From a virus, in the IMG/VR virus record IMGVR_UViG_3300010151_000206, positions 1-22,145 of that record: 22,145 nucleotides of DNA, one strand, 5' to 3'. How positions within the stretch are numbered: the first letter of the stretch is position 1; each line of letters begins with the position of its first letter. Positions 2,947-22,145 of the stretch are shown here, one piece after another. The position numbers and the translations under genes are program-made. The notes beneath the pieces were generated by a model. It was not told the DNA's origin and did not search any database. It saw only the letters and a list, made by a program, of their open reading frames with translations.

Positions 2947-3394
2947 TGGACAAACTTTCTCTTCCTAATAGGTACCCTGTAGTATCAGCATCGGTGCCAG
3001 TATTAATACCAGCATCGTAAGCCCACTTCCACCTAGTATTATCAGATCTTTGGTGGGTTATATGAGCGGGATTGCCTTCTACAAATGTCCATTCTTGGTC
3101 CGAGTCAGCATTTGTTCCGTCCGTCGTGTAAGATTGAGGTGGTACTTTAAGAGCATCAAAAGGATTGTCTGGCCATATTCTACGACCACTATCAATCAAC
3201 TTATGTATTGCATGATTCTCTAAAGCTGCCTAAATGTTAGTTATGACTACATATTCAGTGGATAATTCAGAATTGACAATAATATCTATGTATATTGGAA
3301 TAGCTACTGCAGCTAAAATGCCTAAAATGATCATAACCATGATTAACTCAATAAGAGTAAATCCGTTGTGTTTGTTGTTATCTAGTTTCTTCAT
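2939..3394 (-). pseudogene. Type IV pilin-like protein B interrupted by an in-frame amber codon
   Basis: Reading from ATG 3394 gives a complete prepilin start: leader MKKLDNNKHNG, then FTLIE and the helix LIMVMIILGILAAVAIP. The frame then hits TAG at 3232-3230 (codon 55) and stays open in the same frame to a TAA at 2939, giving 151 codons if read through. This is the length of the two paralogues. Residues after the stop (AALENHA, IWPDNPFDALKVPP) align with the paralogues, where the interrupted position carries Trp (pilin D) or Val (pilin C), so a single TGG to TAG change would explain it. TAG ends other genes here (S21, the gp13-like gene, 18052, 20960), so general amber recoding is unlikely. 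Options are a pseudogene, programmed or suppressor readthrough, or a sequence error. Confidence 0.7.
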
Positions 3395-4791: not shown

Positions 4792-7098
4792 TTATTCAGG
4801 GAACGTAGCCCCTGTTGGTTGTAATGTGAAATCAAGCACTATAAATTCTGCCGTCCTAGTCGGTTGTACGAATATTTGACCATATAGAATATTTCTATCT
4901 ACTAAATCTGGTGTGTTGTTGGATGCATCCATAACAACCCTAAATGCTGTTAATCCTGAATTGGATTGTACTTGTTCCATATAAGGATTAACTATACTTA
5001 GAAATTGCTGTCTTGTTTTAGAATTATTTTGTTCAAAAACTAGAAACCTACTTGTGCTTGCTATAAACTTCTTTAACGTAATAAGTAACCTACGAACATT
5101 TACTCGATCCAAAGCAGATGCTTTCATCTGTAATGTTTTTTGACCCCACACACAAACTCCCTGACCTGGGAATATTGCTATAGGATTAACGTTGCTTTCA
5201 TATAATGTATCTCTTGATGAATGTGTAAGTTTTCTTTCAACTTGCTGCACTGAATCAATGATGCCTCTATTTAAACCGGCTGGTGCAAACCATTGCTGAC
5301 CGACTCTATCATTAAAAGCATACACTCCTGCTATTACTACAGAAGGTGGTACCCATACGCCTCCTACTACTGGATCGTTTATTTGTACCCACGGATAATA
5401 CATTGCCGCGTAGCTTGAATCTCTACCTTCCGCTTCACCGGTTGCGGTTGTTATAGCGGAATCGTAAAATACCGGATCTGCTACTATAAAAGCATCACCT
5501 CTTTTTTCAACAGTCTCAATAGCTCTAGTCAAAATAGTTCCGCCACCAGTTCCAGCATCTACTACACCCGGTAGTAGAATTAAGTTAACATCATATTCAT
5601 CTTGGTTACCAAGTAATCTGATAGCATCTATGTAAGCATCTTGTCCACTACCAGCTACGTTAAGATTTAAACCTTGTGAGTTTGTATCTGCAATCTTATC
5701 ATAAAAATTCTTAGGATGTTGAACCGTACCGTCACTTCCTCCACTAAAACTACCACCAAATGAACCACTATTAGATCCACTAAAGAATGTTGGTAGTGAC
5801 CCAGATAATGAATTGAGTCTGAGATTACCATTCTCATCAAGATAATCTACTGTGGTATTCAGCACTTCGACTCTAACATATTTAGAATTGTTTCGATATG
5901 ATCCACTCAACGTTAAATATGGATCATCTGTCCCGCTACCTCTAAGTACTATCTTCTGATCACCAATTACTTTAGCTATGTAATTATTTGAATTTGGATC
6001 TAAAGATAAATTTTTCCAAGATTCAACAGCTTGCTTTTTCTTTATTGTATCATCACCACGACGTATTGCTAAAGAAAATGTACCTTTGTTTTCATTTAGT
6101 GAAGTAATTTCGTATCTAAAATTATTAGCTGATCCTGAAAGCAATAGTCCTTCAGTGCTACCGTGTAAATCAACACCATTCCCACTATTCAAAATTTCAC
6201 CATCAGCATGAGTATGTAATTTAAATACTAACTGTTCAGTTGATTTAGATCCATCATATCTCAATGTGCTAGATAAAACACCTACTTGGTCACCTAGAAA
6301 TGAACCAGTCATACATGAAGATGTGTGGAACGTAAATACATCTGTGCCGGCACCCTTCATTCCGTGTGAATATAAAACGTCTGTTTCACCAGCAACACTA
6401 CCCGTGAAACCTACAGTAAACGCTCCGTCACTACTTGCTGACAAATGAGTTAGTTGGTGTAGTGATTGACTATTATTAATAGCATCTCTCAAGGCAGAAG
6501 CTGCAAAAACGTTAGCGTCTCCATCCGCTCTTGAAGATGTTACAACCCAAATTTCATTAGCTGTATTGTTCATAATGCTAGCTTGTGACCCAGTGAACCG
6601 AAAAGCTACTTTAGTAACTGCACCAAGTCTAGCATCTGATGATGTTACTGAAAATTTAATTGTATCTTTTTGCCAAGCTGCGCTTGATGTTCCAGCATCA
6701 TATCCACCACCTAACAATAAAGATCCAGATCCCTTTGTTAATCTTGAATTTGATTCACCAATAACAAATGGGTCAATTGAAGATGATACTTCAACAGAAG
6801 CACCACCATATGATCCAGCAAGTACTCTAACAACCGTAAGTGCGCTACCATGCTTCAAGTATTCTCTTGCAGTTAATGAAGTCATGTACTGATAATCAGC
6901 ACTACCACTTTCGAATACATCACCAAAGATTTGCTGATACTCGCTATAACTGCCGACTTGTGTTGGTACTCCAGCAGGTCCCCTAACTGTTGGACCGACT
7001 ACAGCCGCTCCAATATCACCAACCCCAGCTGGTAGAAATGTTTGATCTATTTCATTTGTAAATACACCAGGACTTACTACTTTTTCACTTGACGCCAT
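4792..7098 (-). CDS. 18: Tail sheath protein, T4 gp18-like, long paralogue, 768 aa
   Basis: Contractile sheath subunit. The N-terminus (SSEKVVSPGVFTNEIDQTFL, then GPTVRGPAGVPTQV and YSEYQQIFGD) and the C-terminal core (RVNVRRLLITLKKFIA, FVFEQNN-like FLVFEQNNSKTRQQF, NPYMEQVQSNSGL, DRNILYGQIFVQPTRTAEFI) are conserved sheath regions and nearly match the upstream paralogue at 7115-9004. It is about 139 residues longer. Most of the excess is an insert at about residues 112-291 (roughly bases 6226-6770) before the shared FKLHT segment. The insert is rich in Ser, Gly and Thr and probably forms a surface-exposed domain. The gene begins 16 bases after the first sheath gene, with AGGAAA as a modest ribosome binding site. 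Two sheaths in tandem imply duplication followed by specialisation. Confidence 0.9.
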   Translation of the reverse strand: MASSEKVVSPGVFTNEIDQTFLPAGVGDIGAAVVGPTVRGPAGVPTQVGSYSEYQQIFGDVFESGSADYQYMTSLTAREYLKHGSALTVVRVLAGSYGGASVEVSSSIDPFVIGESNSRLTKGSGSLLLGGGYDAGTSSAAWQKDTIKFSVTSSDARLGAVTKVAFRFTGSQASIMNNTANEIWVVTSSRADGDANVFAASALRDAINNSQSLHQLTHLSASSDGAFTVGFTGSVAGETDVLYSHGMKGAGTDVFTFHTSSCMTGSFLGDQVGVLSSTLRYDGSKSTEQLVFKLHTHADGEILNSGNGVDLHGSTEGLLLSGSANNFRYEITSLNENKGTFSLAIRRGDDTIKKKQAVESWKNLSLDPNSNNYIAKVIGDQKIVLRGSGTDDPYLTLSGSYRNNSKYVRVEVLNTTVDYLDENGNLRLNSLSGSLPTFFSGSNSGSFGGSFSGGSDGTVQHPKNFYDKIADTNSQGLNLNVAGSGQDAYIDAIRLLGNQDEYDVNLILLPGVVDAGTGGGTILTRAIETVEKRGDAFIVADPVFYDSAITTATGEAEGRDSSYAAMYYPWVQINDPVVGGVWVPPSVVIAGVYAFNDRVGQQWFAPAGLNRGIIDSVQQVERKLTHSSRDTLYESNVNPIAIFPGQGVCVWGQKTLQMKASALDRVNVRRLLITLKKFIASTSRFLVFEQNNSKTRQQFLSIVNPYMEQVQSNSGLTAFRVVMDASNNTPDLVDRNILYGQIFVQPTRTAEFIVLDFTLQPTGATFPE

Positions 7099-7114: not shown

Positions 7115-9004
7115 TTATTCAGGGAATGTCGCACCTGTCGGTTGAATTGTAAAATCAAGTACAATAAACTCAGCTGTTCTTGTAGGTTGTAAGAATATTT
7201 GACCATATAGAATATTTCTATCTACTAAATCTGGTGTATTATTCGTTTCATCCATAACAACTCTGAATGCATTCAGACCTGAATTGGACTGGACTTGCTC
7301 TAAATAAGGATTCACTATTGCTAGGAATCTTTTTCTAGTTGAAGCGTTGTTTTGCTCAAACACTAAGAACCTTGAAGAACTTGCAATAAACTTCTTGACT
7401 CTTATCATTAATCGTCTTACATTTACTCGGTCTAATGCTGAGGCTTTTTTCTGTAATGTCTTTTGACCCCACACACAAATTCCTTGTCCAGGAAAAGTTG
7501 CTATTGGGTTTACATTAGATTCATATAAATCATCCCTATTGGAATGTGTTAACTTACGCTCAACTTGAACTGCTACATCGATTCCACCTCTATTTAATCC
7601 AGCAGGTGCGAACCAAGGATGTGCTACTTTATCATTGAATGCAAATATACCACCCATTACAACTGATGGTGGTACCCAAACGCTTTTATTTAAATCTGGG
7701 TCTGCGATTTGAACCCAAGGATAATACATTGCTGCATAACTTGAATCTCTGCCTTCTGCTTCACCAGTTGCAGTTGTTATAGCTGCATCGTAAAAAGTTG
7801 GATCTGCAACGGTAAACGCATCCGATCTGTTTTCACACATATCAATTGCTTTTGTGATTAAAGCTCCACAACCCGTTCCGTTATCAATAAGTCCAGGTAA
7901 CAATACTAAGTTAATATCATACTCATCTTGGTTACCTAATAGATTAATAGCATCTTGATATGCTGCAAATCCTCTACCAGTGTTTGATGATGCTCCACCT
8001 GATAAGTCATACCCTTGTGAATTGTCATCTGTTATTTTGTCGTAAAAATTAACAGCGGATGTATCACCCAGTTGATTTCCTAATGAATCGAATCCTATCC
8101 ATCCATCTGATCCACCTACAAATGATCCACTATTAATACCTGGAAGTGAACCAGTAATTACAGCGTGACCGGCAGCGTTTTCTGTGATGTTTCCGTTTGT
8201 ATCTAAATATCCTGCAGTATCTTTTAATACTTCAACTCTGACATACTTAGATTTATTTACATATGATCCACTTAATTGTAAGTACGGTTCAGTTGTTCCA
8301 CTATCTTTTAATGTGTATGACTGATCTCCAATTACCTTTGCAATATAATTTGGTTCACGTGGGTCTAGTGATACGTTATTCCAAGTCTCAAGAGTTTGCT
8401 TTCTCTTGTGAGTGTCATTACCACGTCTAATTAATAATGTAAAAGTACCTTTCTTAGGATTGACAGTAGATACTTCCCATCTTAAATTGCTAGATGAGCC
8501 TGATTTATTTAAATTTGAAGTTGTGAGATCTCCTCCCTCATAACCACCTCCAGTTGGAACAGCTCCATTTAGAATTGAACCGTGTGAGAGTGTATGCAAT
8601 TTAAAAGAATTCTGATCGTGAGCATCCCAATCTGTTGCTGTAGAACTACCGGTATTATACCCCGTCCCTGCAGGACCTATGCTACCAGTTGGAACATTAG
8701 CTACTGCAGTACTATAAGTACCACCTAGTAATCTTACTACTGTTAAAGAAGATCCATGTTTAAGATATTCTCTTGCTGTGTAAGATGTTAGATATGAATA
8801 GTAACCACTACCACTTTTAAATGTATCCCCAAACGTCTGTTGGTATTCTGAATAATTTGTTACTGTTGTTGGTATACCAGCTGGGCCTTTGACTGTTGGA
8901 CCGATTAAAGCGGCTCCAATATCCCCTACTGCGGCTGGTAAAAATGTTTGATCTATTTCGTTAGTAAATACGCCAGGACTTACTACCTTTTCACTTGAGG
9001 GCAT
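7115..9004 (-). CDS. 18: Tail sheath protein, T4 gp18-like, short paralogue, 629 aa
   Basis: Contractile sheath subunit similar in length to T4 gp18 (659 aa). It has the same conserved ends as its neighbour: SSEKVVSPGVFTNEIDQTFL at residues 3-22, GPTVKGPAGIPTTV, YSEYQQTFGD, TAREYLKHGSSLTVVRLLGG, and the C-terminal block NNTPDLVDRNILYGQIFLQP ending FTIQPTGATFPE. The centre (residues 100-330) is Gly/Ser-rich and diverges from the paralogue. A strong AGGAGA site precedes ATG 9004, and a terminator-like hairpin plus the shared A/T-rich element lie just upstream, so a transcription unit probably starts here. It is the better candidate for the ancestral or main sheath because its length is standard. 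Confidence 0.92.
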   Translation of the reverse strand: MPSSEKVVSPGVFTNEIDQTFLPAAVGDIGAALIGPTVKGPAGIPTTVTNYSEYQQTFGDTFKSGSGYYSYLTSYTAREYLKHGSSLTVVRLLGGTYSTAVANVPTGSIGPAGTGYNTGSSTATDWDAHDQNSFKLHTLSHGSILNGAVPTGGGYEGGDLTTSNLNKSGSSSNLRWEVSTVNPKKGTFTLLIRRGNDTHKRKQTLETWNNVSLDPREPNYIAKVIGDQSYTLKDSGTTEPYLQLSGSYVNKSKYVRVEVLKDTAGYLDTNGNITENAAGHAVITGSLPGINSGSFVGGSDGWIGFDSLGNQLGDTSAVNFYDKITDDNSQGYDLSGGASSNTGRGFAAYQDAINLLGNQDEYDINLVLLPGLIDNGTGCGALITKAIDMCENRSDAFTVADPTFYDAAITTATGEAEGRDSSYAAMYYPWVQIADPDLNKSVWVPPSVVMGGIFAFNDKVAHPWFAPAGLNRGGIDVAVQVERKLTHSNRDDLYESNVNPIATFPGQGICVWGQKTLQKKASALDRVNVRRLMIRVKKFIASSSRFLVFEQNNASTRKRFLAIVNPYLEQVQSNSGLNAFRVVMDETNNTPDLVDRNILYGQIFLQPTRTAEFIVLDFTIQPTGATFPE

Positions 9005-10342: not shown

Positions 10343-10700
10343 GTTGAGTTCTCCTTAATGTACGTAATTTTTGACTTTTTGTCATTACCTTTCCTTCATA
10401 AACATCTGATTCTACTGCGTTCTTATCTACATTTGAAATAGCAATCTCTCTTTTTATATCAACTTCTACTGGTGCTGTTTTTAAAGATTTTCCATTTGTA
10501 ATTTTTCCAGCTATTGCATTAGCTAACTGATTTATATCAATATTTGGTTGTTGAGGTGGTAATGGTTTATTATCACCGTACAAATTTAGATCCTCTTCTA
10601 CAACAGTATGTTGAGGTGCTTTCCTAACAATAGGTTTTATCGGTGGATTCCCTGATGTCCTAACGATCCGTTTAGTGCTTGCGAGTGGTTGAACAGCCAT
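10332..10700 (-). CDS. Small basic, proline-rich protein of the neck region, 122 aa
   Basis: No recognised family. The N-terminal half is Pro/Lys-rich and probably disordered (RTSGNPPIKPIVRKAP, NKPLPPQQPNID). A short helix follows (INQLANAIAGKI) and the protein ends in a basic tail, MTKSQKLRTLRRTQRGS. That tail resembles the end of the membrane protein at 20152-20457 (KTQKDKLRALRK), suggesting a shared C-terminal binding element. It overlaps the upstream MIKLK-tagged gene by one base (TAATG) and the downstream gp15-like gene by 11 bases, so it is made together with neck and tail-completion proteins. Confidence 0.7.
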   Translation of the reverse strand: MAVQPLASTKRIVRTSGNPPIKPIVRKAPQHTVVEEDLNLYGDNKPLPPQQPNIDINQLANAIAGKITNGKSLKTAPVEVDIKREIAISNVDKNAVESDVYEGKVMTKSQKLRTLRRTQRGS

Positions 10701-10993
10701 TACGTGAATCTCTCTTTACCAGTACCACTCAATTTTCGTTGTATGTATCCTTGTGCCCACTTACCAGCTTTCTTTAAAATATGTGTACCGGTATCTACTA
10801 CATAATCAGCACCCTTCCCCTTTACAAGTAGATAATAGTCATGTTTTTTAATTCTATATTTTTTTCCGATGGAATGTCGATCAGCTTCATTACTACGATA
10901 TAGTTGAACTTGTCTACCACCTTTTAATCGAGCAGTGCCATAATAGTCGTCACCAACACTCATCTTTTCTAATAATTCTTTTAATTTAATCAT
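10700..10993 (-). CDS. MIKLK-tagged small basic protein, putative internal head protein, 97 aa
   Basis: The N-terminus MIKLKELLEKMSVG matches the tag shared by five accepted genes in 18336-20155, although this gene sits in the neck module. The tag contains the (L/I)-x-E pattern seen at T4 prohead-protease sites (here E-L-L-E|K). The body is a compact, basic, beta-rich domain (YGTARLKGGRQVQLYRS, KKYRIKKHDYYLLVKGKGAD, YVVDTGTHIL) ending in a Lys/Arg-rich helix (GKWAQGYIQRKL). A DNA- or RNA-binding protein packed in the head is a reasonable guess. It directly follows the 41-residue gene (TAA then ATG) and overlaps the next gene by one base. Confidence 0.7.
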   Translation of the reverse strand: MIKLKELLEKMSVGDDYYGTARLKGGRQVQLYRSNEADRHSIGKKYRIKKHDYYLLVKGKGADYVVDTGTHILKKAGKWAQGYIQRKLSGTGKERFT

Positions 10994-13480: not shown

Positions 13481-15160
13481 TTACAGTTTATCTAATCCAT
13501 CAATATGGATCTTACCATAAAACTCAGGTCTGATCATCTTCTTAGCGTAACGAGTCATCACACCTTTTCTTGGAGTAAAATCACTTGGATCATACACAAG
13601 AGGTGTCATGATTAACGGAACGTAAGGAGCATATACAGCACCGGTTTCTAGGAAATTGGATCCACGGAATCCGACAAGAACAGTGTTCTCAGTCATGTAA
13701 GGATTCTTATAGACGTTGAAACGGTTGTTAATACCACCGATTTTCTGTACGCCCATTGCGAATTGTGCTTTATCACCATCTGTATCAGCCATATAGCCAG
13801 GAAGCGATTCAAGAATCGTCGCGACTTTAGGTGAAACAACACAGAAGTTAGCACCACCACGTAGTGTTAATCTGTGAATTTCATTAGATACTTTTTGGAT
13901 CTTCTGCACCAGTGTTTGATACCACTCGAAACGTGTACCGTAGAAGGTTGTGTTTACGAACGCAGTTGAACTGGAGTTGTAATCGTCACCTTGGTTTACG
14001 GACCAGTAATCGACTGTGGAAGCATCACTGATTAACATATCAAGAATCTCAAGATCGATTTCCATTGATACATACTCAGAAAGCATTGAAGTTAACTCTG
14101 CTTCAGCGTCAACACTATGATAAGCGTTAAGGTCTTGAGCAAGCTCAGGAGTCCATACTGCTTTCAACTTACGTGTTTTAGCAACGATAGCACGAGATTT
14201 AAGTTCAATATCTACTTGTGGAATCTGTAAAGAGTCTGCAGTAGCATTGCCACCCGAATCTTCAAAGTCACCACGAGAAGCTTCTGAAGTGTACTTAACG
14301 TATGATGCTGTTATTGACAACAAGTGACCTACAGCGGATGCTGAGTAAATTGCTGACAATGTACCGGCTGTGCCTTCTGCACCAGTGATTTTAGTAAATT
14401 CAGGATAAAACGCATAAATCGGTTTACCTGAACCAATTGTATCACCGTGAGGGCTAGCTGCCGATGGTAATGCACCAGCACCAGAACCTGAATAGAATTG
14501 TGTAGCTCTGATTGACAGTTTGTCAATATCTGTTTCAGTAACAGCTTTTGTTACTTTAAAGATTTGACCTGCGTTCAGAGACTGACTAAATTCAGTGTTA
14601 AAATTAACATCATTCCAACTAGCAACTGCTGTCGTTAATGAATCGTAATTCAATGAGCTTGTTGCGGCTGAGTACCCGTAACGTCCAGCACCATAAAAGC
14701 CATCTTCACCAAAAGGTGCGCTTGACCCGGATGGGCTGTACTTACCAGTTTTACCTTGTAAACTTTCAGCTGATCCTTGACCCATTCTATTATTTCCATA
14801 TTGGAAATCTAGATAGAATACAAGACCAGATGGTAAGTTCATAGGCTGAACTGAAACGAATTCCTGAGCTGCAATCTCACCAAAGATTCTTCGAACCAAT
14901 GGGAGTGCAACACCAGACCATTCTTCATCACCTTTGTACCCACCTAAAGATCCAGCATTTGGACTTGTTGAAGAAGCCTCTTTGATCAATTCACGGGCTT
15001 GATTTTCAAGTAATTGGGCCATGCCACTTCTTTGAAAATCACCGTCAATACCATCAAGTAAACCAGTCTTGTCCCATTTACCGACTAGTTTTTTAGCATC
15101 TTCTTGCTGTTTCTTATAAGGCGAAGCGTCTAGTAATGCGTCGTTTATATAATTTGACAT
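13481..15160 (-). CDS. 23: Major capsid protein, T4 gp23-like, 559 aa
   Basis: Main shell subunit. The N-terminal region (MSNYINDALLDASPYKKQQE, then QRSGMAQLLENQARELIKE) looks like the T4 gp23 delta domain that is removed during maturation. The best cleavage point is after Glu61 in ELIKE|ASSTS; T4 cuts gp23 after Glu65 in LTE|AE. Downstream, VALPLVRRIFGEIAAQEFVS, VQPMNLPSGLVFYLDFQYG and the C-terminal TPRKGVMTRYAKKMIRPEFY are typical of the gp23 family. It starts 15 bases after the scaffold gene with a strong AGGAGA site and looks compositionally like a highly expressed gene (somewhat higher GC). Length is close to T4 (521 aa). Confidence 0.93.
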   Translation of the reverse strand: MSNYINDALLDASPYKKQQEDAKKLVGKWDKTGLLDGIDGDFQRSGMAQLLENQARELIKEASSTSPNAGSLGGYKGDEEWSGVALPLVRRIFGEIAAQEFVSVQPMNLPSGLVFYLDFQYGNNRMGQGSAESLQGKTGKYSPSGSSAPFGEDGFYGAGRYGYSAATSSLNYDSLTTAVASWNDVNFNTEFSQSLNAGQIFKVTKAVTETDIDKLSIRATQFYSGSGAGALPSAASPHGDTIGSGKPIYAFYPEFTKITGAEGTAGTLSAIYSASAVGHLLSITASYVKYTSEASRGDFEDSGGNATADSLQIPQVDIELKSRAIVAKTRKLKAVWTPELAQDLNAYHSVDAEAELTSMLSEYVSMEIDLEILDMLISDASTVDYWSVNQGDDYNSSSTAFVNTTFYGTRFEWYQTLVQKIQKVSNEIHRLTLRGGANFCVVSPKVATILESLPGYMADTDGDKAQFAMGVQKIGGINNRFNVYKNPYMTENTVLVGFRGSNFLETGAVYAPYVPLIMTPLVYDPSDFTPRKGVMTRYAKKMIRPEFYGKIHIDGLDKL

Positions 15161-15175
15161 CTAACTTCTCCTAAG

Positions 15176-16345
15176 TTATTTGATTATACCAGCTAGTTTT
15201 CTAAACCTATCAGCTACCTGACGTTCTTCTGTAATAATTTCAGTTTTACGTCTTGTAGATCCAGCTTTAGCACTTGCTGATTCTTTTAATTTTGATTTGC
15301 GATTTGGTACAGTTTTATCAGAAAAACTCTCGGCAAGTGTAGCGTAAACTAACTTGATCTCACGAGTAGATTGAGCACGATCAAATGTCTCAACAACTCT
15401 AAGTTTTTGACTGTTGTCCAAAGCAAATTCTTTAAACAGTTTGTTTGTAAACAGAAGTTTAGCATTCAAAATGTTGACCTCATGTAGCTTAGCTTTCAAA
15501 AATCTAACTGCAGCTTTGTACTCTTTGAGTTCTTCACTGTCGTCTTCTTCTTTTTCAGCATCTTCACCTTCAGTCATGTCTTCATCATCATCTTCTTCTT
15601 TTTCAGCGTCATCATTTTCAGCTACCATTGCAGGAGTATTACCTACACCAGTATCCTTATCACCAACATGTTCTGGGTCTTCTTTATTCTCTACATCTTC
15701 AGGATAAGCATCATCTGCTTCTGAGATCTTAGAGGTACTACCCATCTCTTCTGGTGGTTGTTCTTTATTGACATCGCCGTCGACATCTTCAGGGTAAGCA
15801 TCGTCCTCTTCATTTAGTTCAGACTCAAGCTCTTTAATGATAGATTCTAGGTCTAGAGTTTCTTGACCAGATCCATCAGGGTCATCAACACCTTCTACTT
15901 CCATCTCATGTTCATCTTCTACGTGCATCTTTTCGTATTTGATACCGTTGATATCAATTACTTCCGGTGCCGGCTCGTCTCCACCAGGAACTTCATCCTG
16001 TGCGGCGATCATGTCTTCCGGTTCCATCTCTTGTTCGATAGCTGGATCTAATTCGTCGTCTTCGACAGCTGGTTCACCAGTTACCGGATCCAATGCAGGC
16101 TCCGGAGCTAGTTCCATTTCATCATCCTCATCTGCCATTGGGTCGATTTCTGGTTCCATTCCTGGTTCCAGTTCATCGTCCTCGTCTGCCATTGGATCTA
16201 ACGGATCTTGTTCACGCAATTTAGCTGATAACATAGATTGAAGTTTTGGTGCGAATGCTTCTTCTAAAGCCATCTTTGCATTTTGTAAAGCTGTTTCACG
16301 AACCGCTTTAGCATCAGCAATAGCTTCTTTCAAAATATCACTCAT
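15176..16345 (-). CDS. 22: Prohead core scaffolding protein, T4 gp22-like, 389 aa
   Basis: Internal scaffold that is assembled inside the prohead and digested before packaging. The N-terminus MSDILKEAIADAKAV resembles T4 gp22 (MLKEQLIAEAQ) and includes LKE|A as a protease-type site. The centre (residues 45-275) is extremely acidic and repetitive: DPMADEDDE twice (50-58 and 68-76), DDAYPEDV twice (181-188 and 211-218, each preceded by a LNE or ISE site), DAEKEEDD twice. The C-terminal third (residues 272-345) is a long helix with LHEVNILNAKLLFTNKLF and ETFDRAQSTREIKLVYATL, as in core proteins of marine T4-like phages, and it ends FRKLAGIIK. It directly precedes the capsid gene, as in T4. Confidence 0.88.
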   Translation of the reverse strand: MSDILKEAIADAKAVRETALQNAKMALEEAFAPKLQSMLSAKLREQDPLDPMADEDDELEPGMEPEIDPMADEDDEMELAPEPALDPVTGEPAVEDDELDPAIEQEMEPEDMIAAQDEVPGGDEPAPEVIDINGIKYEKMHVEDEHEMEVEGVDDPDGSGQETLDLESIIKELESELNEEDDAYPEDVDGDVNKEQPPEEMGSTSKISEADDAYPEDVENKEDPEHVGDKDTGVGNTPAMVAENDDAEKEEDDDEDMTEGEDAEKEEDDSEELKEYKAAVRFLKAKLHEVNILNAKLLFTNKLFKEFALDNSQKLRVVETFDRAQSTREIKLVYATLAESFSDKTVPNRKSKLKESASAKAGSTRRKTEIITEERQVADRFRKLAGIIK

Positions 16346-16711: not shown

Positions 16712-16997
16712 ATAACCTCCTAATTTCTTCTTTTATTATTTGTCGTAATTTCCGTTCAATCTGTGACTCTTTCACATTGCGTGATTCTAAAAATTTGTTT
16801 GCTAGATACCGTTCCTTACCATACTTTGCATGCTCCCATCTTTTTCGAAATGATTTTGGCATTGTCTCATAATCTTCCGACATTTGATTACGTACAAACC
16901 AAGCGACTCTTCTAGCATCCGCGTTTACTAATCTTTTATAACGATTTTCTTCAAGTGTTTTCATCCACTTCGAAATTTCTCTAACCGTTACTTTCAT
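16665..16997 (-). CDS. Small basic helical protein, 110 aa
   Basis: Not recognised. It is strongly basic and predicted mostly helical: VREISKWMKTLEENRYKRLV, ADARRVAWFVRNQMSEDYET, and a C-terminal helix RKLRQIIKEEIRRLYATKTK. The 'LRQIIKEEIRRL' type of helix is frequent in small proteins of T4-like marine phages. It is coupled to the actin-like gene (ATGA overlap) and its last 47 bases overlap the S21 gene. Translation in this trio is therefore probably linked: ATPase, basic protein, S21. An RNA- or DNA-binding role or a partner of the actin-like filament are both possible; the sequence shows neither directly. Confidence 0.65.
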   Translation of the reverse strand: MKVTVREISKWMKTLEENRYKRLVNADARRVAWFVRNQMSEDYETMPKSFRKRWEHAKYGKERYLANKFLESRNVKESQIERKLRQIIKEEIRRLYATKTKRTQDKRVVR

Positions 16998-18043
16998 GTT
17001 ACTTCCCCCTCTGACTGCGCTTCTTCTGCATCCTCTTCTATTAACTCAGCCTCTGATAAACATCCTCTCGATACAGCGCTATGTGCATCCTCTATTAAAA
17101 CTATTTCCGAAATTGGAATTGGAAATGTGTCTTGATCAAATTGTTCGTTAAATACATCTAAAAAACCTTTCACTAGTGCCGTACCACCACCAATAACGAT
17201 TGGTACTGAATTTGGAAATGCTGGTACGTTTGCAGTGCCCTCAAATTGCACTTTTAAATTTGTAAGTAAATAATTTACTAATGCCCCATAATATGATCTG
17301 ATCGCATGTAAAACTGTAAATTCGTCTGAACCTTCGTCATAAATATCTTGTACTATACCTTTAGATAAATCTAGTTGATTTGATGTTTCTTTAACATTAG
17401 ATACTTTTGCAATTGGAACTCCGGTGTCAATACTTACGTTTTTATCTATCCAATCACCACCTCTTGCTACTGAAAAGGATACTGCTGTCATTCCTTGATA
17501 CATAACAGCTATATTACACATTCCAGCTCCCATAGATATACATACTCCAGTTAATTCACTATCTACTAATCCTTCATACCCTAAAGCAACTGCTTCTTCA
17601 ATCTTCTTAACATTATATCCATAACTATCAATAATAGTTTTTAATACATCCTCGTGGTATGAAACTTCTCTATCTGCATCAATTGGTTTTGCTGGAACAC
17701 AGTAAACGCATACTTCATTGTCTTTTTTAGGCGTTCCTAGTAACTCTCCTATTATAGCATTTAAAATTGGTAGAGCATCTTTTTCTTCTGGATTCAATAA
17801 TCCACTTTTCATTGGTCGTCTCAATGTTGATGCACTAAATATCTGAGCATAGTTGAATGCGTGTTTTCCTACAATATGTACTTTATTAGCTTTTTCAACA
17901 AACGGAATATTTTGTCGTTTTAACATACGTTTTGCTTGACCAGCATCACCGTCGACGGTGAGGAAAGCATTTCTTTGTTTTTTTATTGAGTCATCGCGTG
18001 ATGCTATATAAAACGATGTACCACAATCTAAACCTACTGCCAT
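16994..18043 (-). CDS. Actin/MreB/Hsp70-fold ATPase-like protein, divergent, 349 aa
   Basis: The actin-superfamily signatures occur in order: phosphate-1 loop GLDCGTS (residues 4-10), connect-1-like EAVALGYEG (150-158), phosphate-2 loop ISMGAGMCNIAVM (169-181) and adenosine motif VIGGGTALVKGF (283-294). In the phosphate-2 loop the Asp that usually opens the motif (D-x-G-x-G-T) is replaced by Ser170, and the Thr after the last Gly by Met, so hydrolysis may be slow or lost. The C-terminus (from 331) is a short acidic tail. Length fits ParM/MreB-type filaments rather than full Hsp70. A strong AGGAGG lies 4 bases before the ATG. Possible roles are a cytomotive filament for phage DNA or capsid positioning, or an assembly chaperone. 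Nothing in the window resembles a ParR partner or a centromere-like repeat. Confidence 0.8.
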   Translation of the reverse strand: MAVGLDCGTSFYIASRDDSIKKQRNAFLTVDGDAGQAKRMLKRQNIPFVEKANKVHIVGKHAFNYAQIFSASTLRRPMKSGLLNPEEKDALPILNAIIGELLGTPKKDNEVCVYCVPAKPIDADREVSYHEDVLKTIIDSYGYNVKKIEEAVALGYEGLVDSELTGVCISMGAGMCNIAVMYQGMTAVSFSVARGGDWIDKNVSIDTGVPIAKVSNVKETSNQLDLSKGIVQDIYDEGSDEFTVLHAIRSYYGALVNYLLTNLKVQFEGTANVPAFPNSVPIVIGGGTALVKGFLDVFNEQFDQDTFPIPISEIVLIEDAHSAVSRGCLSEAELIEEDAEEAQSEGEVT

Positions 18044-18051
18044 TTTACCTC

Positions 18052-18345
18052 CTAAACCCCATGTACTGGGATATTCAATCTTATTAAGACTTCGATAACA
18101 TTATCAAAATGTTTAGATGGTATTGTTAATACACCTTTTTTTCCTTTTTGTGTAAAAGTATAACCATCTTTCTTTTTTGGACCAGCTACCGGTATACGCA
18201 ATTTCTTCATTGCGGCTAGAACTCGTACTTTAGATGTACGATCTGCTGGTACGGAAAGCTTTTCAACATTAGCTTCTTTAAGTTTTTGGATCTCATCTGA
18301 GACGAGTTCCTTTAATCTGGATCTTGTAATTTTCGTTATGTCCAT
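18052..18345 (-). CDS. Small basic protein with internal L-K-E|A site, 97 aa
   Basis: The N-terminal helix reads ITRSRLKELVSDEIQKLKEA. It does not have the exact MIKLK tag but contains the same kind of cleavage-like motif, LKE|ANVEKL (around residues 22-25). The body is basic with beta character (KVRVLAAMKKLRIPVAG, GYTFTQKGKKGVLTIPS, FDNVIEVLIRLNIPV) and may be a small alpha/beta domain with two related halves, each ending in an 'LRIPV/LNIPV' strand. The gene overlaps its upstream neighbour by 10 bases and ends in TAG eight bases before the actin-like gene. I infer an internal head protein by context; function unknown. Confidence 0.65.
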   Translation of the reverse strand: MDITKITRSRLKELVSDEIQKLKEANVEKLSVPADRTSKVRVLAAMKKLRIPVAGPKKKDGYTFTQKGKKGVLTIPSKHFDNVIEVLIRLNIPVHGV

Positions 18346-18596
18346 TTCATTAACACCTTGTGTAATTTGGAAGCTTCACGTTTGTCAAACTTTATTGTCG
18401 AATTAGATCGACCTCCTACATGGATCGTAATATACCCATTAGAATATTTGGTTATATATGCATTACCTATAGTTTCTTGACCTACTGTTGTCGCTTCACT
18501 GATTGTCTCTTGTTTAATCTGTGATGGAGTTTTGAATGGCGGTTGATCAGCATCCGTATAAATCTTACCTAACATTATATCTTTTAATTTAACCAT
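18336..18596 (-). CDS. Tagged small protein, putative internal head protein, 86 aa
   Basis: The start is set at 18596, where ATG overlaps the previous stop (TAATG); an in-frame start nine bases further up would read into the previous gene and has no support. The N-terminus MVKLKDIMLGKIYTDA is a variant of the MIKLK tag. A second motif, TISE|ATTVGQ, fits (I/L)-x-E|A and would remove about the first 33 residues. The remaining domain is a compact beta-rich unit (GNAYITKYSNGYITIHVGG, STIKFDKREASKLHKVLMKW). This layout of tag, spacer, cleavage-like site and small domain is what one expects for a T4-like internal protein precursor. Function unknown. Confidence 0.65.
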   Translation of the reverse strand: MVKLKDIMLGKIYTDADQPPFKTPSQIKQETISEATTVGQETIGNAYITKYSNGYITIHVGGRSNSTIKFDKREASKLHKVLMKWT

Positions 18597-19183
18597 TAGT
18601 CCCAATCATAATTTTTATCTAAATATTTTAACAATGTATCATTAGCTTTATACAATTTGTTAATCTGAGCTTTTAGCTGTCTGTCTTTCATGTAGTTCGT
18701 ATTTCTATTTGCCAGCCATCCTAGATTTTCTATTGCATCACCTAATGCATAAACTGCAGATCTCATAGAGATTTGACCTTCTTTTAACATATCTTTTAAT
18801 TTGATCATTTCTTTTATACGTTCTTCTTTTCTTACAAGTGGTTTAGGTCTATTCCAAGTCATATCCTTTAACATAGATTCTTTAATAAGTTCTTTTTCTA
18901 AACCTTCAAGTTGTAAATTCAGTTGTTTCCATTTATACCCTCCTTGTTTTCCGAGAGTCTTTTTTAACGAATCTTTAAAGAAATTAAATATCTCATCATT
19001 AACATTAAAATCCACTTCCATCTGCCCACCACCATAATCACGTACCTTTATGTGTTTAATACCGGCTTTTCTCATTATTGGTAATATCTTCTTTTTCATA
19101 AACTTTGTATTTCCGGTAAAAGTATGTTTTTGTTCTTGAAGTTTTTTTATTTTTTCTTTAATAAGTTCTTTTAATTTAATCAT
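18596..19183 (-). CDS. Two-module tagged protein (fusion of two MIKLK units), 195 aa
   Basis: I use ATG 19183 (MIKLKELIKE), directly after the preceding stop. The longer frame from 19222 would overlap the upstream gene by 38 bases and add a non-matching leader. The protein contains the tag twice: residues 1-10 and again at 126-136 (MIKLKDMLKEG), with no stop between. In the middle, ELIKESMLKDMTWNRPKPL (residues 98-116) repeats the start of the upstream gene at 19185-19445. It therefore looks like two tagged genes joined by recombination through that shared segment, or a precursor cut into parts. Module 1 is basic alpha/beta (GIKHIKVRDYGGGQMEVDFN). Module 2 is helical (SAVYALGDAIENLGWLANRN). 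An internal start at 18808 is possible but lacks a good ribosome binding site. Confidence 0.65.
   Translation of the reverse strand: MIKLKELIKEKIKKLQEQKHTFTGNTKFMKKKILPIMRKAGIKHIKVRDYGGGQMEVDFNVNDEIFNFFKDSLKKTLGKQGGYKWKQLNLQLEGLEKELIKESMLKDMTWNRPKPLVRKEERIKEMIKLKDMLKEGQISMRSAVYALGDAIENLGWLANRNTNYMKDRQLKAQINKLYKANDTLLKYLDKNYDWD
18840..18870. repeat. 31-base direct repeat, copy 1
   Basis: This block is identical over 31 bases to 19378-19408 and is followed, after a few mismatches, by a further similar run (attctttaataag). Both copies encode LKDMTWNRPKP in the same frame. It marks a recent duplication or recombination between adjacent tagged genes. Confidence 0.85.
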
Positions 19184-19184
19184 T

Positions 19185-19445
19185 TTACGTAATCCTCTGA
19201 TACATTGCTTTAAATGAAGCAAAAAAAGTGTTATAATTTTTCAAAGCCTTTCCTACCAATCGATTCCCTCCGCTATCGAGATCTCGAGATCTGGTGTGCG
19301 CGTATTTTTTAAATAGTTTTCCTAACCTACTGAACTCTCTGACCAGTTCAGCTAATTCATCAGGAGCTTCGTTAAGCGGTTTAGGTCTATTCCAAGTCAT
19401 ATCCTTTAGTCCATATTCTTTAATAAGCTCTTTTAGTTTAATCAT
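19185..19445 (-). CDS. Tagged small helical protein, putative internal head protein, 86 aa
   Basis: Begins MIKLKELIKEYGLKDMTWNR and continues PKPLNE|APDELAEL, so it carries both the tag and a second LNE|A cleavage-like site (around residues 25-28). The remaining helix-rich domain (LAELVREFSRLGKLFKKYAH, KALKNYNTFFASFKAMYQR) is basic. A perfect 14-base palindrome, AGATCTCGAGATCT (19279-19292), lies inside the coding sequence and is probably incidental. The gene starts one base after the previous stop (TGATATG) and ends one base before the next start. Function unknown; internal head protein is inferred from tag and neighbours. Confidence 0.65.
   Translation of the reverse strand: MIKLKELIKEYGLKDMTWNRPKPLNEAPDELAELVREFSRLGKLFKKYAHTRSRDLDSGGNRLVGKALKNYNTFFASFKAMYQRIT
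19378..19408. repeat. 31-base direct repeat, copy 2
   Basis: Identical over 31 bases to 18840-18870, in the same orientation and reading frame. Here it lies at the 5' end of the 86-residue tagged gene. Confidence 0.85.
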
Positions 19446-19446
19446 A

Positions 19447-19737
19447 TCAGAATACCGACTTTATCACATCAATGTTGGAAAACTTTTTTGCAGCCCTTGC
19501 GAATAACAGCTTATCCAGTGCATGCAAAGCTGCTCTGGTTTCATTGGCCTGCCTAAGTACATCTTCCACGTACATGAGACCCTGATATGCTTTGATGAGT
19601 CTTTTATCCCCGACATGTCTTGCCAAATCTGCTCGAGCTCTTGTGTGATTGTTTCTATCTGTGAGCATCCGGATGGATTCAAGTGCGGCTCCACCGAGCT
19701 CTGCTTTTTCGTTAAGTAGGTTTTTTAGTTTAATCAT
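19447..19737 (-). CDS. Tagged small helical protein of unusual base composition, 96 aa
   Basis: The N-terminus MIKLKNLLNEKAELGG carries the tag with LLNE|K as the cleavage-like point. The rest is an Ala/Arg-rich helical domain (RARADLARHVGDKRLIKAYQ, LMYVEDVLRQANETRAALHA, LDKLLFARAAKKF). By hand count the body is about 47% GC (19481-19710), against roughly a third in the neighbouring gene. The tag codons have the A/T-rich composition of the neighbours. This suggests that a foreign domain was placed behind a resident tag. A good AGGAG site precedes the ATG. Function unknown. Confidence 0.7.
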   Translation of the reverse strand: MIKLKNLLNEKAELGGAALESIRMLTDRNNHTRARADLARHVGDKRLIKAYQGLMYVEDVLRQANETRAALHALDKLLFARAAKKFSNIDVIKSVF

Positions 19738-19750
19738 TATTCAACTCCTA

Positions 19751-20155
19751 TTAGTCATCAAATTGTATGTGTTTTTTAGAAGTTTGTTGTAAAGCCTTTA
19801 GAACTTTGTTAGGATTTTTCAAATTACCTACTACACCCATAGACCTACTGCCTTTAGGATGTATTTCTACATCACCTTTTTTAGTTATTTTAAGAAACCA
19901 CCAATCTCTAAATTTTCCTTTTTTACCATTGTGAGCTACTTGATACTTAATAGCATAATAAGTAGGATGGGGAAACATTACTTCTGACGCAGTCTCAACA
20001 TGCCCACTACCCGAACTACGAAATTTTTTCCAAATCTTATCTAAAGTTTTGTGAACTTCTTGTTTATATTTTTTGGGTACTCCTGTTCCTGACTTTGTTT
20101 TAAGTCTATATACCTTTGAAAAGTCCTCATCTAATAAATCTTTTAGTTTAATCAT
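19751..20155 (-). CDS. Tagged basic protein, putative internal head protein, 134 aa
   Basis: Begins MIKLKDLLDEDFSKVYRLKT, the tag with LLDE as the cleavage-like point. The body is very basic and looks like a compact alpha/beta domain: YKQEVHKTLDKIWKKFRSSG, MFPHPTYYAIKYQVAHNGKK, GKFRDWWFLKITKKGDVEIH, ending KVLKALQQTSKKHIQF. The central 'WWFLKITKKGDVEIHPKG' hairpin may be a nucleic-acid-binding face, but I recognise no family. The start overlaps the previous stop (ATGA), linking it to the membrane protein upstream. Confidence 0.68.
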   Translation of the reverse strand: MIKLKDLLDEDFSKVYRLKTKSGTGVPKKYKQEVHKTLDKIWKKFRSSGSGHVETASEVMFPHPTYYAIKYQVAHNGKKGKFRDWWFLKITKKGDVEIHPKGSRSMGVVGNLKNPNKVLKALQQTSKKHIQFDD

Positions 20156-20460: not shown

Positions 20461-20949
20461 TTACTGTACTTGAACAGCTTGTGTTACAGCGTCACGACGA
20501 TTCTTTAAATACTCATCTGAATCGTCAGTATCACCATCATTATCCACATCACTATCTTCACCACCGACCGGATCCATTGCTTCTTGAATATCATAATACC
20601 TGTTCAATATGCCACCTATATCTTCATATAAAGATGATAATCTATTATTAACAGCACTGTATTCCTTTGCAGCAACTTTAAATTCTTTAACCATTCCGTT
20701 CATCGCTTTCATGTTTCTATTAACCGTAACTTTATCAAACCAATCATCTGATTCTGATAAAACGTGGTTATGAGCTTGTTCTGCTATTTGTACTAGTTGC
20801 TCAGCTATTTCAAGAACATTTACTTCAGAATAAATCGATTTTCCAATATTTCCATATTGAGACACAGCCTCTATAACCGCATGTTTATCAATAGGCTGCT
20901 CATTTTCTTCAAATACCTCAACTAACAAATCTTTTAAATTTGTCGCCAT
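20461..20949 (-). CDS. Helical head-cluster protein with EF-hand-like calcium motif, 162 aa
   Basis: The N-terminus MATNLKDLLVEVFEENEQ is a variant of the tag (LKDLLVE). The middle is a long helical region (NVLEIAEQLVQIAEQAHNHV, GMVKEFKVAAKEYSAVNNRL). Near the end, DIQE|AMDPVGGED gives a cleavage-like site and is followed by DVDNDGDTDDSD, which has the D-x-D-x-D-G spacing of an EF-hand or dockerin calcium loop, then EYLKNRRDAV. If the precursor is cut at IQE|A, the calcium-loop peptide of about 40 residues is released. A strong AGGAG site precedes the ATG. Function unknown; a structural internal protein is most likely by context. Confidence 0.68.
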   Translation of the reverse strand: MATNLKDLLVEVFEENEQPIDKHAVIEAVSQYGNIGKSIYSEVNVLEIAEQLVQIAEQAHNHVLSESDDWFDKVTVNRNMKAMNGMVKEFKVAAKEYSAVNNRLSSLYEDIGGILNRYYDIQEAMDPVGGEDSDVDNDGDTDDSDEYLKNRRDAVTQAVQVQ

Positions 20950-20959
20950 TGTTTTTCTC

Positions 20960-22145
20960 CTACTTTATTTTCCGTAGCGCTTTTTGTGCTACATTTAAAA
21001 ATTTTATTGCTGCTCCAGGGCTTTTATAAACACCCTCTTCAGCTGCTCCTGGATGTTCAGAAATCATATATTCTATTTCTTCTTGAGCATCTCTCAAATG
21101 TTGTGAGAAAGGCATTGCTACTTCCTTCACATGTTCCTTCTTTCCTACAGCAAGCATTTTTTTCGATTTATCTACAAGTTTTTTATAACCATATAAAAAA
21201 TTTAAGCTACGAGCTGCTTTACCTGCTTCTACTTTATAAGTTGTATTATTAATTTGTTTTTTCTGTTTCATTCTTTCAACATCTTGAGCGTATTTTTCCC
21301 AATACTTAATTAACTCAACTGTATTCATCTTTGAAAGTGGTTTGGCTTCTTTTAAGGATTCATACCGAAACTTTCTTGTAAGTTTATTGTGAATTTTATC
21401 AGCCTTAGTCCTATCTGTTATATTTCTAGGTAAATCCATATAAGCCTCAGCACCTTTCTTTTTTATCCAAATGTAGAATCTTCCTTTTTTATCTTGGAAC
21501 ATTTCTGTACTATTTCCCTTGTTATCATTATAACCACCTATATAATTATCGCCTCTTTTTTTATGATGAAACTTACGTTCATTTATGGATTCGGTTTTCC
21601 ATTTATTCTTATCTGCCATTGCAGCTAATTTTTTCCAATCACTTCCCATTTTTCTCGTAACTCGAGTGAACGCCATATTATCGCCCTTTTTTAGATGCAT
21701 CATAAACCTATACAACCCTTCCCAGTTTGGTTCTACATTAATAGTTCTGGCTTCATTTACCCATTCAAAAGATAATTTTTTAAATGCTCCAAGTGCGGAT
21801 GGATGATTTGCAAAATAATCAATAATTTTTAATGCTCCCTGTTGATGTTGTAATTTTACAACACCCAATACCTTCAGAAGTTTGCGAATTGCTGGATTTT
21901 GTAACATTTTATCAACATCTATTTTAAATGCTTCATCTACAGATTCGTCAACGGACTTAACTATATTTTGTATTTTTTGTTTTACAAATTTTTCTTTAGC
22001 ACTACCTCTGAGAGACTTATAGTGTTTTATTACTTTTTCAGCAGTTTCAACATCCATAAAAATACTATCAATTCTTTTACCTTTTTTGGTTTTGAGAATC
22101 TTTCTTATATCGGCTATTTTATTTTGTGCTTCATTTACGGATTCA
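20960..22145 (-). CDS. Putative internal head polyprotein with repeated cleavage-like motifs (5' end outside window)
   Basis: The frame is open through the right edge, so the ATG at 22057 is probably internal; 29 codons precede it inside the window. The product is a very basic chain punctuated by six copies of E-(S/W/H)-(V/I/L)-(N/D/K)-E-(A/R/V): ESVNEA at the edge (22144-22127), then, counting from the ATG at 22057, ESVDEA (38-43), EWVNEA (98-103), ESINER (156-161), ESLKEA (233-238) and EHVKEV (308-313). The spacing is about 58-77 residues. Each fits the (I/L/V)-x-E| rule of T4-type prohead proteases. Segments between are distinct small domains, for example one with FHHKKRGDNYIGGYNDNKG and FYIWIKKKGAEAYMDL. 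I infer a polyprotein of packaged peptides. It ends in TAG. Confidence 0.65.
   Translation of the reverse strand, partial: ESVNEAQNKIADIRKILKTKKGKRIDSIFMDVETAEKVIKHYKSLRGSAKEKFVKQKIQNIVKSVDESVDEAFKIDVDKMLQNPAIRKLLKVLGVVKLQHQQGALKIIDYFANHPSALGAFKKLSFEWVNEARTINVEPNWEGLYRFMMHLKKGDNMAFTRVTRKMGSDWKKLAAMADKNKWKTESINERKFHHKKRGDNYIGGYNDNKGNSTEMFQDKKGRFYIWIKKKGAEAYMDLPRNITDRTKADKIHNKLTRKFRYESLKEAKPLSKMNTVELIKYWEKYAQDVERMKQKKQINNTTYKVEAGKAARSLNFLYGYKKLVDKSKKMLAVGKKEHVKEVAMPFSQHLRDAQEEIEYMISEHPGAAEEGVYKSPGAAIKFLNVAQKALRKIK

Follow-up and report, generated by a model that had tools for sequence, protein, structure and literature searches.

Several small genes in a 22,145-base record of a marine T4-like virus, a genome fragment analysed here at its full length (the window), begin with nearly the same residues, of the type MIKLKDLLDE, and continue into proteins that are generally unrelated. 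Sequence comparisons indicate that this shared start, or tag, is most probably a capsid-targeting leader of the kind found in T4, with cleavage predicted after its Glu and packaging predicted for the protein behind it. The tagged small proteins are thus very probably packed into the head, and they may enter the next cell with the DNA. Internal proteins of the T4 kind that carry such a leader have been known chiefly from T-even phages. In the mechanism that we propose, the opening ~10 residues (or their longer counterpart) would bring each small protein into the prohead's scaffolding core, a gp21-type prohead protease would cut after the Glu of L/I-X-E, and the mature cargo would remain with the DNA in the head. 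The leader would be a portable module that persists while cargo genes turn over in a plastic region flanked by protease and scaffold.

All the tag copies that an earlier note on this DNA had listed are present, on the minus strand: MIKLKELLEK at 10993, MVKLKDIMLG at 18596, MIKLKELIKE at both 19183 and 19445, MIKLKNLLNE at 19737, MIKLKDLLDE at 20155 and, inside a gene, MIKLKDMLKE at 18808. The observation holds, with corrections. Two copies deviate in the Glu: the start at 18596 has none in its first 10 residues and is part of a longer, different type of leader, ...GKIYTDADQPPFKTPSQIKQETISE/A (slashes mark predicted cuts), and the start at 10993, MIKLKELLE, has its Glu at position 9 (L-L-E), kept as L-L-E or L-I-E-E in two relatives. 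Two leaders had been overlooked, at 20949 (MATNLKDLLVE) and at 18345 (a long leader, MDITKITRSRLKELVSDEIQKLKE/A). The bodies are unrelated, as described, except that the genes at 19445 and 19183 have the short segment LKDMTWNRPKPL in common, near-identical in DNA too. Five window genes start with MIKLK[DEN]L[LI] and the variant MVKLKDIM at 18596 makes a sixth; these 6 of 32 genes compare with an expectation of 0.00005 per set after shuffling the residues of each protein. The reversed DNA pattern of the tag gave no match. In the near clade, 37 N-termini carry the core motif, where its frequency within proteins would predict 2.1.

The tag also matches the T4 leaders residue by residue. T4 IPII and IPIII start with MKTYQEFIAE and gp24 with MAKINELLRE, and the first 10 residues of gp24 are removed (PMC9958956). 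The T4 protease gp21 cleaves after L/I-X-E, and suppressor analysis of the IPIII leader assigned residues 4 and 7 to targeting and residues 8 and 10 to processing (PMC9026906). MIKLKDLLDE fits both this rule and this register (hydrophobic residues at 4 and 7, L or I at 8 and E at 10), which bears out the T4-like L/I-x-E pattern first proposed from the window alone. The register is found at 19183, 19445, 19737, 20155 and, with M7, at 18808; it is absent at 18596, and the Glu stands at 9 in 10993. As for descent shared with the T4 leader, the leader is too short for homology statistics, and metagenomic leaders such as MIKFKEFIAE are intermediate between the two.

Beyond the window, a DNA pattern encoding MIKLK[DE..][LF][LIM]xE found at least 120 stretches in IMG/VR, compared with 2 for a control with the same codons in permuted order. 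Since 119 of 129 pattern matches stand at the start of an open reading frame (ORF), these and the window genes place a short leader of ~10 residues at the very N-terminus, as in T4. From the contigs with the tag and from relatives of the capsid protein we assembled 214 tagged proteins, aligned on the Glu, and these fall into 101 clusters of unrelated bodies (BLASTP, 1e-3). The same leader therefore precedes unrelated bodies, and its cargo is replaced in a sister phage (below). TerL starts, for example MAEKNIKQIVKEQY, fit the loose core motif without being leaders. The 25-residue consensus of the long leader had no match in phage records, the query being too short for tblastn.

Conservation ends at the Glu. 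The information content is ~3-4 bits at positions 1 to 8, 0.93 just before the Glu, 0.76 just after it and 0.2-0.5 from there on. The Glu is 100% conserved in the 214-protein collection by construction, as the pattern demanded it, but it does not vary either in sets of homologues collected by the similarity of their bodies (E10 in 10 proteins, and E24 of the long leader in 5). These data bear on the idea that the leader is a helical docking peptide on the scaffold or capsid that is never cut, with the tagged proteins acting as full-length minor assembly or structural proteins. A helix is predicted in both protein models described below, and the tags cluster beside the scaffold gene, as such a peptide might suggest. 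We nevertheless consider it unlikely: the Glu is invariant where it was not selected for, the corresponding Glu in T4 serves processing and not targeting (PMC9026906), the preceding residue varies freely, as expected from L/I-X-E, the bodies start directly past it, and the capsid protein has the same site.

The leucine of the tag is spelled by up to six codons and other tag positions are synonymously mixed too, so selection appears to act on the protein and not on the DNA. Scrambled synonymous codons behind a conserved protein sequence make it barely credible that the repeated start is a functionless relic of gene duplication or recombination, even with near-identical DNA around LKDMTWNRPKPL in two neighbouring genes; E10 is also retained across homologues only 31-51% identical, and the same tag precedes many unrelated bodies in many contigs. 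Could the tag instead work outside the head, as a translation-start or RNA-level, membrane or degradation signal, or as a complex-forming helix in infected cells? A slight synonymous codon bias and some tagged genes outside the head region (in G016) would be in keeping with this. It is quite improbable, given the six codon types for the same Leu and the mixed codons elsewhere, conservation that reaches the terminal Glu, the concentration of tags beside gp21 and the scaffold gene, and the matching register of the T4 leaders, whose ip genes also lie away from the T4 head cluster.

Head proteins of these phages contain the same cleavage motif as the leader, which the earlier note had overlooked. 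The window capsid protein reads ...MAQLLENQARELIKE/ASSTSP, with an L-I-K-E site at the position of the gp23 propeptide boundary, and L[IV]xE followed by a variable linker is invariant in all relatives aligned across this boundary. In the scaffold, five [LI]xE sites are conserved at ≥90% over 74 proteins, above any other residue combination tested. The prohead protease, predicted to lie beyond the right edge of the window, was found in the sister phage G024, where a gp21-type (S77) gene lies upstream of the tagged stretch; G024 and the window are 95% identical in the capsid protein, 93% in the actin-like volactin and 98% in the tube. A gp21 homologue occurs in the records of 13 of 20 relatives. 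Among contigs over 20 kb, the protease is present in 21 of 50 with the tag and in 7 of 46 controls; below 120 kb the counts are 18 of 45 and 1 of 39 (p = 4e-5). Tags in many genes outside head modules, or in phages without a prohead protease, had been named as evidence that would speak against capsid targeting. Across four phages, tags are concentrated in the stretch from protease to scaffold, where 20 of 65 genes have one, compared with 4 of 75 at other places (p = 8e-5). Those of G016 lie elsewhere (3 of 117 genes, after the sheath). The protease is enriched in contigs with the tag, but three large, unclosed ones gave no match.

Several points weigh against a capsid-targeting leader. The window is a fragment that ends before the protease gene, the start at 18596 has no Glu within residues 1-10, and one tagged G016 protein matches tape-measure profiles. 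Synonymous codon use in the leader is slightly unlike that of the bodies, and G009 and G010 lack the canonical short tag in this region, the core gene excepted. The control contigs for the protease comparison, chosen by an unrelated AT-rich 15-mer, are unmatched for phage group. Tag contigs of 96, 126 and 207 kb, with ends not closed, gave no gp21 or gp23 match, and one of the three has a T4-type sheath. Even so, the sequence-level predictions tested for a cleavable capsid-targeting leader (protease, capsid site, end of conservation, register and leader exchange) came out as expected.

Leader exchange is evident from comparison with G024. The flanking genes are 83-95% identical (w20152 83%, w18052 86%), and between w20152 and w18052 the window has four tagged genes where G024 has other cargo with the same leader (MIKLKELLKE/GRDDD..., MIKLKQLIKE/NIYRE... 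and MIKLKDLIPE/QCECN...), without similarity to the window's four at E 1e-3. DUF6267 proteins carry a leader in L173 (MIKFKEFISE/QKNTH) and in Phage C48C1 (MMLDFKNFITE/QKNTH), and in cyanophage S-PRM1 the protein starts without one, (M)AKNTHLEHLED. The tagged and untagged forms are joined at the same point, which indicates that the leader was added exactly at the predicted cut. The second domain of the 195-amino-acid protein follows a short leader in the window (KLKDMLKE/GQISMRS) and a long one in the relative G001 (MKLTKSKLKEIIKEELLGE/, that is, KLKEIIKEELLGE/QQITLRS). Leaders of the long type, MK[LI]TKSKLKEIIREELLNE, precede the bodies of 18 clusters, and a third type (GKVYTDxDxPPFK) precedes differing bodies in about ten genes, including the window gene at 18596. 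In the model of the 96-amino-acid protein, the confidence score pLDDT (predicted local distance difference test) is 57 for residues 1-10 and 95 for residues 11-20, and a fold search found no PDB match. The 97-amino-acid protein is modelled with a leader helix at 8-24 and a small alpha/beta domain from residue 29, which weakly resembles small ferredoxin-like/ACT folds.

In the 195-amino-acid ORF, a leader opens the protein, L-I-K-E follows at 99-102 and a complete leader occupies residues 126-135, giving three predicted cuts; G001 encodes the two domains as separate genes. Should the protease act on this ORF, it would free two cargo proteins and a linker; or the second part may also be started at its own ATG, at 18808. 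The near-identical DNA around LKDMTWNRPKPL in neighbouring genes points to recent recombination at the leader. A broader proposal, to which we give roughly even weight, is that these phages run a general cargo-loading cassette, with several interchangeable protease-cleavable leaders (MIKLKDLLxE, MKLTKSKLKEIIREELLNE and the GKVYTDxDxPPFK type), an operon hotspot next to the protease in which cargo is swapped at the leader, and tandem cargo, as in the 195-amino-acid ORF, that is fused behind a single leader and released by the prohead protease. The core gene at 20461-20949 has a C-terminal dockerin-like repeat, EDSDVDNDGDTDDSDEYLKNRRDAV, common to parts of several unrelated PHROG families, perhaps a second, C-terminal portable module.

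What might be packaged? Profile searches with Pfam and PHROG recognised no domain in the tagged bodies of the window. Tagged proteins elsewhere match Nudix, Mom (E = 1e-24), Zeta-toxin/AAA kinase (1.6e-10) and NT5C (7e-7), and others GNAT, ParBc_2 and DUF6267 (2e-109); weak matches are to a metallopeptidase and a 2H RNA-ligase-like protein. One tagged protein matched leucine-rich-repeat profiles, which we ascribed to similarity between repeats, and a Mu Gam-like match of the 195-amino-acid protein (E = 0.0007), which covers only a lysine-rich helix, was left unused. T4 IPI (Ip1), Ip2 and Ip3 block Type IV restriction by inhibiting different GmrSD enzymes (PMC12373910), and because of this an anti-defence role is plausible for the tagged proteins. 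From the sequences we infer targeting, cleavage, packaging, injection and early host-takeover or anti-defence roles. One tagged protein of 493 amino acids (L158:1-1479, minus) has a weak 2'-5' RNA ligase-like match (E = 0.0012) and a very weak one to Acb1 (0.035), making it a possible packaged candidate against CBASS (cyclic-oligonucleotide-based anti-phage signalling system). Two others (L183:9039-9593 and L172:3688-4227, minus) have bodies that open with FHGS motifs as in some ADP-ribosyltransferases, without Pfam support.

A putative cytidylyltransferase of cyanophage S-SM1 was detected in virions (PMC3037559). Large proteins of G009 and G010 that contain a GRFQPFG motif start with MNQFIQEIIKPLLKE/D and MQLVKEIVKPFLVE/D, a suggestive, possible parallel to the S-SM1 protein. 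Proteins of 1030 and 1109 amino acids with a GRFQPFG-type motif and Nudix matches are encoded upstream of the terminase gene at L103:12921-16010 and L099:1676-5002, and the start of the former resembles a leader ending in L-x-E.

The closest comparison is with T4 IPI, IPII and IPIII (MKTYQEFIAE/A), which likewise have ~10 N-terminal residues in the same register, small proteins and unrelated bodies behind one leader, in a phage with a gp21-type protease (here in the sister phage). The system described here differs in leader sequence, in its many tagged genes clustered between protease and scaffold, in having at least two further leader types and a tandem fusion of two cargo domains, and in a much wider cargo set across uncultured phages, enzymes included. 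The gp24 propeptide, MAKINELLRE/, resembles the tag (MxKxxELLxE), and gp21 removes an N-terminal piece from both gp24 and gp23, where the propeptide ends FLTEAE/. However, gp24 and gp23 are shell proteins, and the tagged proteins have no detectable similarity to capsid proteins. T4 Alt, a packaged and injected ADP-ribosyltransferase, is an enzyme packaged via gp21-processed ends, and several tagged proteins here have enzyme domains, although no ADP-ribosyltransferase is confirmed among them and the two with FHGS-like starts have no Pfam match. In phiKZ and SPN3US, a distant relative of gp21 cleaves many head proteins, inner-body and ejection proteins among them, after a motif that ends in Glu; the phiKZ motif is S/A-X-E, whereas here it is L/I-X-E with a compact conserved leader.

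The genes of the window lie on the minus strand and make up a head-neck-tail module like that of T4, with major capsid protein, scaffold, volactin, a gp13-like neck protein, two sheath genes and one tube gene. With a capsid protein of gp23 type encoded in the same module as sheath, tube and this neck protein, the phage belongs to the T4-like myoviruses related to RM378 and Immutovirus; the annotated phage records nearest to it in capsid protein are those of Flavobacterium phage immuto, Microcystis phage Mel-JY01 and Rhodothermus phage RM378. Volactin (16994-18043, minus; PF25216, E = 2.3e-71), 72-93% identical across the clade, is encoded between the scaffold and cargo stretch. The tail sheath genes are tandem paralogues (4792-7098 and 7115-9004, minus), both retained in G024; in-frame TAA codons suspected in the sheath genes of three contigs are not real, and the frames are open. 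Type IV pilin-like proteins (2019-2477, 2479-2946 and 3230-3394, minus) adjoin the tail tube gene, with the N-terminal methylation motif PF07963 (1.7e-8 and 1.7e-7), which is uncommon for a phage tail module, and one of them is also found in G024. At the right edge, the frame 20960-22145 (minus) runs open beyond the window (ESVNEAQNKIADIRK...), and because the homologous frame in L210 has 843 amino acids, the listed start at 22057 may be internal.

Table 1. Leaders, cargo genes and processing sites of the window, and the protease gene of sister phage G024 (aa, amino acids; slash, predicted cut)
Feature	Position	Strand	Basis or remark
Short leader MATNLKDLLVE/ of core gene	20917-20949	minus	
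Conserved core gene	20461-20949	minus	between gp21 and scaffold in relatives
Short leader MIKLKDLLDE/ of 134-aa gene	20126-20155	minus	T4 register L4 L7 L8 E10
Tagged cargo gene, 134 aa	19751-20155	minus	no Pfam or convincing PHROG match; not in sister phage G024
Short leader MIKLKNLLNE/ of 96-aa gene	19708-19737	minus	M1, K3, E10 invariant; 10 homologues 31-51% identical
Tagged cargo gene, 96 aa	19447-19737	minus	predicted all-helical domain; no PDB match
Short leader MIKLKELIKE/ of 86-aa gene	19416-19445	minus	sequence
Tagged cargo gene, 86 aa, with LKDMTWNRPKPL	19185-19445	minus	
Short leader MIKLKELIKE/ of 195-aa gene	19154-19183	minus	sequence
Tagged gene, 195 aa, two cargo domains in one ORF	18596-19183	minus	separate genes in G001
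Predicted protease site L-I-K-E/S, aa 99-102 of 195-aa protein	18878-18889	minus	gp21 rule, PMC9026906
Internal leader MIKLKDMLKE/ ahead of second cargo domain	18779-18808	minus	
Third leader type MVKLKDIM-LGKIYTDADQPPFKTPSQIKQETISE/A of 86-aa gene	18495-18596	minus	N-terminal module GK[VI]YTDxDxPPFK, differing bodies
Cargo gene, 86 aa, third leader type	18336-18596	minus	
Long leader MDITKITRSRLKELVSDEIQKLKE/A of 97-aa gene	18274-18345	minus	E24 invariant in 5 homologues
Cargo gene, 97 aa, long leader	18052-18345	minus	
gp22-like scaffold with conserved [LI]xE sites E29, E172, E289, E339, E373	15176-16345	minus	
Major capsid protein	13481-15160	minus	PHROG 138, E = 2.7e-70
Major capsid protein propeptide ...LLENQARELIKE/ASS, cut after E61	14978-15160	minus	PHROG 138
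Short leader MIKLKELLE/ (Glu at 9)	10967-10993	minus	on 97-aa neck-region gene 10700-10993
gp21-type protease of G024	24458-25063		48% identical to immuto protease; PF03420, E = 2.4e-31

The leader strings were not found in published papers in a literature search made mostly without subscription papers; as far as that literature shows, the principle is known from T4, and the leaders, their number, their exchange and their reach are new. The T4 principle would recur across uncultured aquatic T4-like phages, with leaders of their own and about 100 cargo clusters. If the proposal of a cargo-loading cassette is true, the leader labels a large and so far unread group of effectors carried in the virions of uncultured T4-like phages, among them Nudix, Mom-like, Zeta-like kinase, GNAT and nucleotidase proteins. 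Such a sequence label for likely virion-packaged proteins would make the question of which proteins enter with the DNA searchable in metagenomes and checkable by mass spectrometry.

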